From the NCBI GenBank assembly GCA_015058295.1, contig SVCP01000008.1, positions 1-54,691 of the forward strand: DNA of 54,691 bases, written 5' to 3'. The position numbers and the translations under genes were made by a program. Of this stretch, positions 21,349 to 25,212 are shown in pieces (position 1 is the first letter of the stretch; each line of letters opens with the position of its first letter). This DNA comes from Anaerofustis stercorihominis. GTDB lineage: Bacteria > Bacillota > Clostridia > Eubacteriales > Anaerofustaceae. A model generated the notes under the pieces. It was not told the DNA's origin. It did no database searches and was given only the letters and a program-made list of their open reading frames with translations.

Positions 21349-21361
21349 ATTTATATGTAAT

Positions 21362-21462
21362 GCGCCGCAGGCGCAACCAAAGCAAAGCATCAGCTTTGCT
21401 TTGGTTGCCGGCCCGGAAGCTTCGCTTCCGGGCCGCTGCCGGAGGCAGCGGGCCTGCGGCGC
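21362..21462. repeat. Three-arm palindromic element, copy A
   Basis: An 11-bp outer stem (21362-21372 with 21452-21462) encloses three hairpins. The first is 16 bp (21373-21388 with 21393-21408, loop ATCA), the second 12 bp (21409-21420 with 21424-21435, loop TTC), and the third 5-6 bp (21436-21440 with 21444-21448, loop GGA). All pairs are Watson-Crick. It is intergenic, between convergent genes, and shares the outer stem core CCGCAGGC with copies B and C. Confidence 0.85.
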
Positions 21463-21487
21463 CCCTACAGAAAATACATGGTTATAT

Positions 21488-22207
21488 TCATATACCTCTT
21501 GAGATTATCATTTCATTGAGTTTGTCGAGAGCATCTTTTACGGAACCTACTTCGTCAATAAGTCCGATATCAACTGCTTTTTTCCCTATAAGGATCGACC
21601 CTATATCATTCACAAGCTCGTCAGAGTTAAGCATATAATGCATAAAATATTCTTCGCTGATCTGTGAGTGATTTACCACGAATTTAACGATCCGTTCCTG
21701 CATTCTCCTGAAATAATCGAAACTCTGCGCTACTCCTATGACAAGACCGTTTGTTCTTATGGGGTGTATAGTCATAGTTGCTGTCGGTGCTATAAACGAA
21801 TAGTCCGTACATACAGCAAGTGGAACACCGATGGAGTGCCCGCCTCCAAGGACGAGAGATACACTCGGCTTCGATATTCCGGAAATAAGTTCGCAGATGG
21901 CAAGCCCAGCTTCCACATCGCCTCCCATGGTGTTCAGGATAAGAAGCACACCTTTTATGTTTTCATCCTGCTGTGCCTGTAAAATAAGCGGGATGAGATG
22001 TTCGTATTTGGTAGCCTTTCTTCCGGGACCAAGCTCCATATGTCCTTCGATTTCTCCGATAATTGATATGGGCATTATGCCGTCTTTATAAAGCTGTGCA
22101 GTTTGTCCGAGCTCAGATATACTGTCCAGATTACCCTGTATGTCAGGCTCCTTCGGTGTATTTTTTTCTTCATCACTTTTTGTCAGATCAGAAAATATCC
22201 TCCACAT
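21488..22207 (-). CDS. ClpP-like peptidase, TepA family
   Basis: This 239-residue protein has the ClpP/crotonase fold of translocation-enhancing protein TepA. Key segments are LNTMGGDVEAGLAI (residues 91-104, oxyanion side), the nucleophile Ser125 in GGGHSIGVPLA and His148 in MTIHPIR. The start at 22207 has GAGAGG 7 bases upstream; an upstream extension to 22267 lacks homology. There is no signal peptide. TepA-type proteins are linked to signal-peptide or membrane-protein turnover. It lies downstream of the non-coding RNA region. Confidence 0.85.
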   Translation of the reverse strand: MWRIFSDLTKSDEEKNTPKEPDIQGNLDSISELGQTAQLYKDGIMPISIIGEIEGHMELGPGRKATKYEHLIPLILQAQQDENIKGVLLILNTMGGDVEAGLAICELISGISKPSVSLVLGGGHSIGVPLAVCTDYSFIAPTATMTIHPIRTNGLVIGVAQSFDYFRRMQERIVKFVVNHSQISEEYFMHYMLNSDELVNDIGSILIGKKAVDIGLIDEVGSVKDALDKLNEMIISRGI

Positions 22208-22278
22208 AAATAAACCTCTCATAAAGTTTTTCTTATTGTTTGGATATATGCTCAAATTATTCCGCAATTTATCATTAA

Positions 22279-22950
22279 ACTAAAAAAACACCTTTCGGTG
22301 CTTTTTAGAATAAGGAGGTTGAAAAGAATGTTCCGTTTAAGAGAGTTCTTTGTACCACACTCCATCCGGCTCATGAAGCATGGCACAAAACATTCTCAAA
22401 AGAAAACCTTCTTTGCCTATGCGGCAAAATAAAAGGAGAAATGTATAATAAACGACTTTCGTCGGTTATTATCGAGGCTCAGAGTTGAGCCTGCCAAAAG
22501 TAAAAACCGTTTAACATTAATGGGAGAGCATAAAGCCCTGCCCGGTTATCAGCACTTGAATGTGCATTGGGAGGATACCGGCTGTGCGGTAGGTTATATA
22601 TTATTATTGGACAGATAATCCATTTTATATACTGTATCAGTATTTGTCGGTTATGAGGTGATTTCGGAAGATGCTGTTTGCTTTTATTATCTTCCGAAAT
22701 ACCCTCGGGAGGTGACCAGTCTCCACGTAACCCCAGGACGTTATTTAATAACATGCCTTATAACAATTAGGATTTATATTAAGCCTTTCGGCCTGATATC
22801 GTTTTGCGAGAGTTTCTCTCGGGGGACTTTCATTTTTGAAAGTCCCCTTCGGGCTGACCGGGCCCGGAACTCTTCAGGGTGTTACTTAATTTTCATGTCT
22901 TAAGTAATAATAGGGAGGATTTATGTTTATATAAAGCACTTATCATGCTG
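22279..22950 (-). ncRNA. Candidate large structured non-coding RNA
   Basis: About 670 bases, leftward, ending in a terminator at 22282-22306. Strong local helices include an 11-bp hairpin (about 22662-22698), an 11-bp stem closing at 22823-22846, CGAGAG/CTCTCG (22807-22820), an 8-bp stem at 22882-22906, AGGCTCA/TGAGCCT (22475-22492) and GUCG/CGAC with UUAUUA extension (22445-22472). The stretch 22352-22386 folds as a 14-bp stem only as minus-strand RNA, because its G-U pairs would be A-C on the other strand. An outer helix joins about 22389-22396 to 22325-22332. The 5' end is uncertain. The size recalls ROOL/OLE-class RNAs, but I cannot match a consensus. Confidence 0.6.
22282..22306 (-). terminator. 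Leftward terminator of the large RNA
   Basis: On the minus strand, CACC-GAAA-GGTG (22289-22300) extended by A-T pairs is followed by seven T residues (22282-22288). Confidence 0.8.
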
Positions 22951-22960
22951 AATATCGTAT

Positions 22961-22992
22961 TAAAAAAGCCCCTGAACTTCCGCTCAGGGGCT
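22961..22992 (-). terminator. Leftward terminator between the two RNAs
   Basis: A 9-bp perfect stem (22967-22975 with 22984-22992) is followed on the minus strand by six T residues (22961-22966). Confidence 0.85.
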
Positions 22993-23013
22993 GGTTATAC
23001 CAATTTTGAGTTT

Positions 23014-23038
23014 AAAAAAAGACGATACCTGTATCATC
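23014..23038 (-). terminator. Terminator of the small RNA
   Basis: On the minus strand, GATGAT and ATCGTC pair with one U-G wobble (23021-23038), followed by seven T residues (23014-23020). The wobble fits only this orientation. Confidence 0.7.
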
Positions 23039-23176
23039 ATCCACTCATATCCAAACTTCCCCCGAAGCGAACGACATCTGATGAGCTAAAGTTTCCGACT
23101 CAGCCGAAGCCTTACGGTAGCGAGAGAGCTGTTGCGGATGTTAACCGCATTCCTTTTACTCATTGTTTGATTGTGC
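23014..23176 (-). ncRNA. Candidate small structured RNA, about 160 nt
   Basis: A perfect TTGACA/TATAAT promoter just upstream predicts a start near 23176. The RNA has a TGCGG/CCGCA hairpin near its 5' end (about 23130-23147), an ACCG...UCGG helix with a UUCG loop (about 23094-23118), and two interleaved pairings (AAACUU with AAGUUU, CUCAU with AUGAG) that could form a pseudoknot at about 23043-23092. It ends at a hairpin followed by seven T residues, with a second terminator 20 bases on. No ORF of note lies inside. I cannot match it to 6S, SRP, tmRNA or a known riboswitch. Confidence 0.6.
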
Positions 23177-23180
23177 TTAT

Positions 23181-23209
23181 ATTATATCAGCGCATGGTAT
23201 ATTTGTCAA
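23181..23209 (-). promoter_or_regulatory. Consensus promoter of the RNA region
   Basis: On the minus strand: perfect TTGACA (23209-23204), 17-base spacer and perfect TATAAT (23186-23181). Confidence 0.9.
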
Positions 23210-23289: not shown

Positions 23290-25212
23290 TTAAGCAGTTT
23301 CTTTTGTCTTTTTAAGTTTGATATACTGATAAGCGAATACAACACCTACGCATACACAGCCGATAACGTCTGTAAGATTGCCCGGCCATACGAGCATAAG
23401 GCCACCGACACCGATGATGATCCTTTCGAGCCAGCCTGCAGGAGCAAGACCGTAGCCTTCCATTGCAACAGCAACGCCTGTTGTTCCGATAATTGATGTG
23501 ATGACGATCTGAACAACTTCAAGGAATGTTGTATCAATGAACAGCATTGCCGGATTCATTGCAAAGATGTACGGGATAATGAACGCTGTGATCGCAAGTC
23601 TTGTTGCCGTAGCACCTGTTTTCAGCGGATTCGATTTTGCGATAGCCGCACCTGCATATGCTGCGAGGGCTACAGGCGGTGTTATGTCTGCAACAATACC
23701 GAAGTAGAATACGAACATATGTGCCGCAAGTGTGGGAATTCCCATTTTTACGAGGATAGGAGCTGTTACAGTTGCCATGATGACGTATGTGGCTGTTGTC
23801 GGAATGCCCATGCCGATAACGATGCAGGCGATCATTGTGAAGAAGAGAGCCAGGAAGATGCTGTTTTCAGCAACGCCCATAAGAATTCCTACAAGTGTCT
23901 GTCCGAGGCCTGTGAGTGTAACGATACCAACAACAACACCTGAAATCGCACACGCAACAGCAACACTGAGAGTGTTTTTTGTTCCTCCTGCAAGAGCGTC
24001 AATGAGTTTTGACGGTGTGAGTCGAGTATCCTTGTTAAACATACTTACGATGATTGATGTAAGTATAGCAAAGCAGGCTGCATAAGCCGGAGTGTAACCG
24101 ATGTTCATAAGAACTACGAGTACAACAATTGGAAGGAGCAGATATCCCTTTGTGATTATAAGCTTGAAGAAATTCGGAAGAGTGTCTTTCGGAAGACCTT
24201 TAAGACCGAGCTTTTTCGCCTCAAAGTGGATCATAAGGAATATACCCGTAAAGTACAGTATAGCCGGAAGAATGGCTATTGTAACGATGGTTGAATACGG
24301 AGTGTTTGTGATTTCCGCCATAAGGAATGCTGCCGCACCCATGATCGGAGGCATGATCTGTCCGCCTGTTGATGCTGCCGCTTCAACTGCTGCTGCGAAT
24401 TCCGGTTTATAGCCGATATCTTTCATGATGGGGATAGTGATACTTCCGCTTCCTACTGTATTTGCAACGGAAGAACCGGAATACATGCCTTCGAATGCGC
24501 TTGTGATTACGGCAACCTTCGCCGGACCGCCTGTTGCGCTTCCTGCAATGGAGTTTGCAAGATCAATAAAGAACATACCGATGTTTGTCTGTTCAAGGAA
24601 TGATCCGAGGCTGATAAACAGGGCGATAAATGTAGCGCATACTCCGAGGGGAGTACCGATGATCCCGTTTGTTGTGTAGTAAAGCTGGTGAATTACTCTG
24701 TGAAGAGAATAACCCTGTGTGAACGCATATCCTACAAAGAGTCCCGCAACGATAAGAATCGGAATACCCGATACTCGTCTGCATGCTTCCACGAGAATTA
24801 CGATACCGATAATTGCGACGATCTTGTCTGTATTATTGATCATAATAGCTCTGTTTACGATAGCTTCGAAGTTTATTGCAAAATAGAAGTATGCGGCTGC
24901 GCCGACTACGGCAAGAATAATGTCGTATATTGGGATATAATTTACTCTTTTATTAGATTTTTTTGTCACCGGATAAAGAAGGAATACAATAAAGATAATG
25001 CATCCGAGGAAGATGCTTCGTCTTACCTGTTCCGGCGGAGTGATAAAGAGCGTCATTGCAAAGATGAGAAGAGCGAATCCTACGAGAAGACCTGTGATGC
25101 AATGTTTGTACATTCCCGTAAAATGACGGGTGTTACTGTCACGGTCGAACTCGCTCATGAGCTCTTCAATGTTGATTTCTTCATGAGTATTTTCTGTTGT
25201 TAAATTCGACAT
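23290..25212 (-). CDS. TRAP transporter permease, fused 4TM/12TM (TAXI type)
   Basis: This 640-residue integral membrane protein joins the small DctQ-like and large DctM-like TRAP subunits in one chain, with about 16 or more helices. Features include PVTKKSNKRVNYIPIYD, SGSSVANTVGSGSITIPIMK, GGQIMPPIMGAAAFLMAE and GMGIPTTATYVIMA. TRAP systems import organic acids by using Na+ gradients and a binding protein. Two genes upstream in the same leftward operon encode a DUF1850 protein and a TAXI binding protein, a known TAXI-TRAP cluster. The substrate is not shown; glutamate or dicarboxylates are common in the family. Confidence 0.93.
   Translation of the reverse strand: MSNLTTENTHEEINIEELMSEFDRDSNTRHFTGMYKHCITGLLVGFALLIFAMTLFITPPEQVRRSIFLGCIIFIVFLLYPVTKKSNKRVNYIPIYDIILAVVGAAAYFYFAINFEAIVNRAIMINNTDKIVAIIGIVILVEACRRVSGIPILIVAGLFVGYAFTQGYSLHRVIHQLYYTTNGIIGTPLGVCATFIALFISLGSFLEQTNIGMFFIDLANSIAGSATGGPAKVAVITSAFEGMYSGSSVANTVGSGSITIPIMKDIGYKPEFAAAVEAAASTGGQIMPPIMGAAAFLMAEITNTPYSTIVTIAILPAILYFTGIFLMIHFEAKKLGLKGLPKDTLPNFFKLIITKGYLLLPIVVLVVLMNIGYTPAYAACFAILTSIIVSMFNKDTRLTPSKLIDALAGGTKNTLSVAVACAISGVVVGIVTLTGLGQTLVGILMGVAENSIFLALFFTMIACIVIGMGIPTTATYVIMATVTAPILVKMGIPTLAAHMFVFYFGIVADITPPVALAAYAGAAIAKSNPLKTGATATRLAITAFIIPYIFAMNPAMLFIDTTFLEVVQIVITSIIGTTGVAVAMEGYGLAPAGWLERIIIGVGGLMLVWPGNLTDVIGCVCVGVVFAYQYIKLKKTKETA

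Follow-up and report, generated by a model that had tools for sequence, protein, structure and literature searches.

What is encoded between the genes for a TRAP transporter and a ClpP-like protease on this contig of the gut bacterium Anaerofustis stercorihominis, and what could the product do? In the window, by which we mean the whole 54,691-nucleotide stretch of DNA that was analyzed, a sequence-only reading had placed on the minus strand, at 22279-22950, a candidate for a large, structured non-coding RNA. This located the RNA body correctly but missed a predicted riboswitch and a promoter at 22960-23209.

Architecture of the transcription unit

The minus strand carries a single transcription unit composed of a promoter, a predicted cobalamin riboswitch, two terminators (T1 and T2), an RNA body of ~680 nt and a final terminator (Table 1). 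The unit is co-oriented with its TRAP transporter and ClpP-like neighbors. Its promoter, TTGACA...TATAAT, is retained in the homologue described below. In both species, GC-rich, REP-like nested palindromes (AAGCAAAGCATCAGCTTTGCTT, GCTTCGCTTCCGGGCCGCTGCCGGAGGCAGC) lie between genes at the distal end of the ClpP-like gene (window 21360-21470; L041 of the sister genome, 5600-5720).

Table 1 Features of the RNA unit and its flanking genes, in the order of minus-strand transcription
Feature	Position	Strand	Evidence and remarks
Flanking gene, TRAP transporter permease DctM (context)	23290..25212	-	Pfam DctM 2e-89
Sigma-70-type promoter, TTGACA-17-TATAAT, TG before -10	23181..23209	-	Consensus matches 12/12
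Predicted cobalamin riboswitch aptamer	23042..23176	-	Rfam AdoCbl RF01482, full-length, 31 bits, E 0.002; gathering 50
Terminator T1, GATGATA-CAGG-TATCGTC, T7	23013..23041	-	Read directly; hairpin and T-run kept in homologue
Terminator T2, 11 bp, T6	22962..22992	-	Homologue: 8-bp hairpin of other sequence and T7 at equivalent place
Structured non-coding RNA body, ~680 nt	22282..22961	-	z -8.0; homologue z -11.7; control stretches far weaker
Repeated module, first copy, partial (hairpin, then AUAAAUCCU...GACAUG...UUAAGUAAC)	22882..22955	-	Direct reading; partial direct repeats
Repeated module, second copy (ACGAUAUCAGGCCGAAAGGCUUAAUAUAAAUCCU...)	22738..22803	-	Homologue: two such copies, 90% identity
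Hairpin with conserved 9-nt loop RYUGGUCAC	22708..22724	-	Stem GGAG/CUCC
12-bp hairpin with conserved loop GCAAACAGC	22661..22700	-	p 0.99; homologue 0.94; one compensatory pair
Hairpin H1, flanking the targeting segment	22445..22472	-	Stems identical across species, tetraloops differ
Candidate targeting segment UACAUUUCUCCUUUUAUU, core UUUCUCCUUUU at 22441-22431	22428..22445	-	Conserved, mostly unpaired, complementary to MtaA/URO-D RBSs
Hairpin H2, UUUGCC-GCAUA-GGCAAA	22412..22428	-	Identical in both species
Long helix, 8 + 16 bp	22325..22396	-	Interspecies changes use G-U pairs, fixing strand
Anti-SD-like AACCUCCUU near 3' end	22312..22320	-	Identical in homologue; AUC 0.39 for methyltransferase genes
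Intrinsic terminator of the RNA	22282..22306	-	Fold; homologue terminator of other sequence and like form
Flanking gene, ClpP/TepA-like protease (context, outside unit)	21488..22267	-	Pfam CLP_protease 7e-19

The head of the unit appears to be a weak-scoring but conserved cobalamin riboswitch, for which cobalamin binding is predicted. The scores in both species fall under Rfam gathering (31 vs 50 in the window; 28 vs 31.5 in the homologue, RF00174 Cobalamin, E 3e-4). The riboswitch core CAGCTCTCTCGCTACCGTAA is almost unchanged between species, its position is also kept, and one helix shows a two-sided change from C-G to U-A. T1 and T2 stand between the riboswitch and the RNA body, and T1 is likely the expression platform. 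In the full-length fold, a 3' helix arm of the riboswitch (GAUGUCGUU, 23078-23070) is complementary to AACGAUAUC of the module at 22803-22795 (p 0.93), and cross-talk between the riboswitch and the RNA body through this predicted pairing is possible. The other cobalamin riboswitches of the genome precede cobT and surface proteins, which gives the picture of a B12 scavenger.

The RNA body contains no conserved open reading frame. Its chance ORFs (81-123 aa) have no Pfam match, and two small plus-strand ORFs with good Shine-Dalgarno (SD) sequences, considered as genes, were rejected on finding them broken in the homologue by a start codon change (ATG to ATA) and a one-base deletion. The minus strand folds at -216.8 kcal/mol, compared with -150.6 kcal/mol for shuffles (z -8.0), whereas the plus strand reaches only z -4.3; the homologue folds at z -11.7. 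In a single-method run, the RNA and its homologue were more stable than shuffles by 64 and 58 kcal/mol, respectively, against a mean advantage of 9.7 (sd 8.7, best 32) for 46 control stretches of the window. In the 3' domain, 41/41 pairs are retained across both species; five of them changed on one side, and the strand is fixed as minus because these changes stay paired, via G-U, in the minus RNA alone. The helices at 22388-22350 and 22543-22522 are predicted to form (p 0.96-1.00). The sequence-only reading was therefore sound in describing a large structured RNA with no good ORF, in choosing its strand from G-U pairs, in proposing these two helices and in drawing a leftward terminator near 22282-22306, which is real.

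Its hint of kinship with ROOL or OLE was not supported, as no Rfam family reached threshold within the RNA body. In a gathering search of the window that included OLE, ROOL, GOLLD, RNase P and tmRNA, tRNAs alone reached gathering; weak matches in the RNA body at loose E-values (RNAI, U7, tmRNA and similar) look like chance. An ornate RNA of the OLE/ROOL/GOLLD kind, with a structural or ribonucleoprotein role and merely expressed at low B12, would share the size, fold energy and heavy structure seen here, as well as the lack of an ORF. We consider this quite improbable: unlike those RNAs, the one described here has no Rfam match, is headed by a riboswitch and was found in a single genus, and the match to ribosome-binding sites (RBSs) reported below would go unexplained.

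Several elements of the body are conserved in form. The module ACGAUAUCAGGYCGAAAG..AUAUAAAUCCU..GACAUG occurs in one full and one partial copy in the window and in two full copies and one partial in the homologue. The RYUGGUCAC hairpin has the stems GGCG/CGCC and GGAA/UUCC in the homologue, which are compensatory changes relative to GGAG/CUCC. Two-sided changes between species were also found in the hairpins at 22492-22475 (A-U to C-G) and 22847-22822 (two pairs). These changes were read from two folds set side by side and, with n=2 sequences, count as support and not as a statistical test; covariation is thin because the RNA is present in two genomes only.

Such conserved apical loops atop changing stems, the repeated modules and a size much larger than an antisense segment requires would all suit a riboswitch-controlled decoy or scaffold for a protein, bound through the modules and the loops UGGUCAC and GCAAACAGC, with the RBS match incidental. 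The Rli55/EutX RNAs of Listeria and Enterococcus work in this way, sequestering EutV through ANTAR elements (PMC8079631). However, the known type of partner is missing. A search of both genomes for an ANTAR regulator (EutV) gave 13.2 bits at best against a cut-off of 27.3, a level of noise also seen in control genomes, and the RNA therefore falls outside the Rli55/EutX type. A decoy or scaffold would also leave the genus-specific RBS motif of the methyltransferases unexplained, and we regard it as distinctly unlikely.

The homologue and the distribution of the RNA

The sole homologue found lies on contig JAFXKY010000041.1 of a same-genus genome (G001), the sheep-rectum MAG Eubacteriaceae bacterium RGIG6509. 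Its unit is complete: every element is present, from the promoter and the riboswitch through T1 and T2 to the RNA and its closing terminator. Toward the 3' end of the RNA, about 175 nt are 87% identical between the two species, and the remainder has diverged with its hairpins retained. A covariance-model search of 67 genomes of the order and 391 of the class found the RNA in this genome only. A module-pattern search of 84,980 species returned the same genome plus two unrelated chance matches in Bacteroidota; viral contigs and plasmids did not contain the RNA, and DNA-similarity searches likewise gave G001 only. Very diverged relatives could be missed by these searches because they used one domain or one module.

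In the homologue, the TRAP transporter and ClpP-like genes flank the cassette as in the window, and the cassette is inverted relative to both. As it is inverted but intact between unchanged neighbors, it is an independent RNA gene and not a leader. Riboswitches normally precede genes, and the ClpP-like gene does lie downstream on the same strand in the window, so that a leader of this gene, or a decayed coding gene behind the riboswitch, might be imagined. Against this stand the terminator between the RNA and the ClpP-like gene, the opposite orientation of that gene in the homologue, a fold far above controls and the lack of coding conservation, and we find this explanation scarcely credible. 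The unit and its structure, strand, conservation and independence are shown computationally, and the structure and the locus are well supported.

In G001, a gene for a 193-aa orphan protein (L041 3095-3676, minus) lies directly downstream of the RNA. This protein has no Pfam family, and 12 other genomes of the bacterial family contain no relative of it; it was rejected as a partner of the RNA, being absent from the window genome and from the rest of the family.

A conserved segment and the RBS motif of a methyltransferase family

Two C/U-rich segments identical in both species were tried as antisense patterns, having been chosen as conserved and C-rich before any targets were known, and one of the two gave a signal. 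The 3' segment UUUUCAACCUCCUUAU gave nothing. With UACAUUUCUCCUUUUAUU, matches fell on RBSs belonging to several URO-D-type methyltransferases and to a QueG-like protein. The segment containing UUUCUCCUUUU is identical in both species and mostly unpaired, and lies between two conserved hairpins. The sequence-only reading had pointed instead to an anti-SD-like AACCTCCTT at the 3' end, which both species indeed carry unchanged; the upstream AAGAAGGTT proposed to pair with it, however, reads AAAACGGTT in the homologue, so that this pairing is not kept. The anti-SD hint was useful, although the telling segment proved to be the internal UUUCUCCUUUU (22441-22431) and not the 3'-end AACCTCCTT.

Gene calling covered 1.06 Mb of the window's genome and, in G001, 0.36 Mb chosen around URO-D genes. 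It gave 1387 ORFs, from which an HMM grown from the antisense matches collected 46 family members. Of these 46 genes, 37 have AAGGAGA in their RBS, versus 104/1341 others (p 9e-31), and this bias holds within each genome separately (16/19 and 21/27). In an unbiased count, the most enriched 8-mer was AAGGAGAA, carried by 33/46 family genes versus 54/870 of the remaining genes that have a good SD (p 1e-26). It is the exact complement of UUCUCCUU and is also complementary to the UUUCUCCUUUU segment. Conversely, GGAGG is avoided in family RBSs (4/46 vs 391/1341). When 112 windows of 18 nt along the RNA were scanned, CAUUUCUCCUUUUAUUUU best separated family genes from others (AUC 0.78, p 5e-10); the 3' AACCUCCUU segment, the 5' UCCUCC segment and the 16S anti-SD showed no methyltransferase preference. 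The predicted duplexes between the segment and the RBSs range from -16 to -19 kcal/mol, several extending to the start codon. Pairing alone is not selective, because 54 other SD-bearing genes of the sample also carry AAGGAGAA.

Same-strand neighbors of family genes carry the motif at background level (8/66), and none of four other paralogue groups with at least six members has a comparable bias (best p 0.02). That best value belongs to MFS/GPH-type transporter genes (L201 461-3715, L239 6354-9475), some of them beside methyltransferases, which have an AAGGAGA RBS in 3/6 cases and are possible further targets. The family proteins are distant from each other (median identity 26%), AAGGAGA occurs in 12/15 clusters at 45% identity, and the sequence flanking the motif is not conserved; copying of the genes therefore does not account for the motif. 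In five relatives without a detected copy of the RNA, AAGGAGAA is found in 2/35 family genes and GGAGG is preferred (18/35); for AAGGAGAA, the difference from the genus has p 8e-10. The 35 control genes are top PF01208 matches, with more distant subfamilies among them; when only the 20 closest homologues are counted, AAGGAGAA occurs in 1/20. By computation, then, the shared RBS motif that matches the conserved segment is specific to the genus.

It is possible, though fairly unlikely, that the AAGGAGAA RBSs arose from another cause in the genus, such as translation tuning or another regulator, and that UUUCUCCUUUU in the RNA is a coincidence. RBSs are purine-rich anyway, and UUCUCCUU appears in 1-2% of RNA shuffles, the UUUCUCCUUUU 11-mer being found in 0.05-0.2%. 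A coincidence would nonetheless have to account for a segment that is conserved, accessible and the best among all windows scanned, and for the matching genus-only distribution of motif and RNA.

The two genomes have 25 and 28 PF01208 matches. For the family proteins, the best-scoring models are those of methylcobamide:CoM methyltransferases, with scores below cut-off, and scores to HemE are low. Most contain an HxCG motif (His 44/46, Cys 36/46 at aligned columns), which we take to be the zinc site of MtaA-type enzymes. The UroD superfamily includes many corrinoid methyltransferases (PMC10418091). A corrinoid-binding protein was found neither in the sampled genome regions nor near the methyltransferases, and for this reason the B12 dependence of the enzymes is drawn from homology only. 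One tandem array (L210 3308-9712, G000:C61) holds five URO-D/MtaA-type methyltransferase genes, all with an AAGGAGA RBS. An even larger methyltransferase expansion is present in a relative of the same family (G005) in which the RNA was not found: its genome of 2.7 Mb has 50 PF01208 matches.

Proposed function and known systems

The RNA may silence methyltransferase genes at low B12, because it appears to be B12-switched and carries the complement of an RBS that most of these genes share. Our preferred reading, which we hold to be somewhat probable, is that of a B12-riboswitch-controlled RNA that acts in trans to block methyltransferase translation when B12 is low. When cobalamin is plentiful, the riboswitch would let transcription end at T1/T2. 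When it is scarce, RNA polymerase would read through and produce the ~680-nt folded RNA after the riboswitch. This RNA would show UUUCUCCUUUU between its two conserved hairpins and pair with the AAGGAGAA RBSs of many mRNAs for MtaA/URO-D-type (corrinoid) methyltransferases. Such pairing would block translation, saving effort on enzymes unable to work without their cofactor. We infer this trans mechanism, as we do the B12 response, the expression of the RNA, its pairing in the cell and the repression.

To our knowledge, riboswitches control almost wholly the adjacent gene, and in the few cases where one drives a regulatory RNA, the target is a single antisense neighbor or a single protein. For a broader reading the case seems to us evenly balanced: a cofactor-sensing riboswitch would drive a large trans-acting RNA over a dispersed regulon of ~25 paralogous corrinoid-type methyltransferase genes per genome, whose RBSs have converged on the complement of the RNA in this genus. 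Such a B12-sparing RNA would be the vitamin counterpart of RyhB and other iron-sparing RNAs. If true, riboswitch control would reach a dispersed regulon, a whole gene family, and this would account for the way in which anaerobes that encode dozens of corrinoid-type methyltransferases keep from producing them without cofactor. The reading also yields direct and simple predictions.

Parts of this scheme have counterparts in Listeria. In AspocR, a B12 riboswitch stops the transcription of a long non-coding RNA prematurely in the presence of B12, and the full-length RNA, made without B12, represses the regulator of B12-requiring genes, apparently at translation (PMC8079631). The B12-riboswitch control logic proposed here is similar. 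However, AspocR is antisense to the adjacent pocR, whereas the plus strand of 22280-23200 contains no credible gene, which sets our RNA apart from an antisense to an adjacent regulator, and its predicted targets are a dispersed gene family. Rli55/EutX likewise have a B12 riboswitch followed by a long RNA and follow the logic of "no enzyme without cofactor" (PMC8079631); the same order of B12 riboswitch and non-coding RNA was found here, with sub-threshold riboswitch scores. The LhrC family sRNAs pair through exposed C/U-rich motifs with the SD regions of several mRNAs (PMC8079631), as we propose for this RNA, in which an accessible C/U-rich segment is complementary to the target RBSs. They differ from it in having no head riboswitch, in their motif (UCCC) and in their unrelated sequence. 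Finally, SreA, a SAM riboswitch that acts in trans, is a riboswitch-linked RNA that base-pairs with another mRNA (PMC8079631), as proposed here; in SreA, the terminated riboswitch itself pairs with prfA, whereas here it would be the read-through RNA that pairs.
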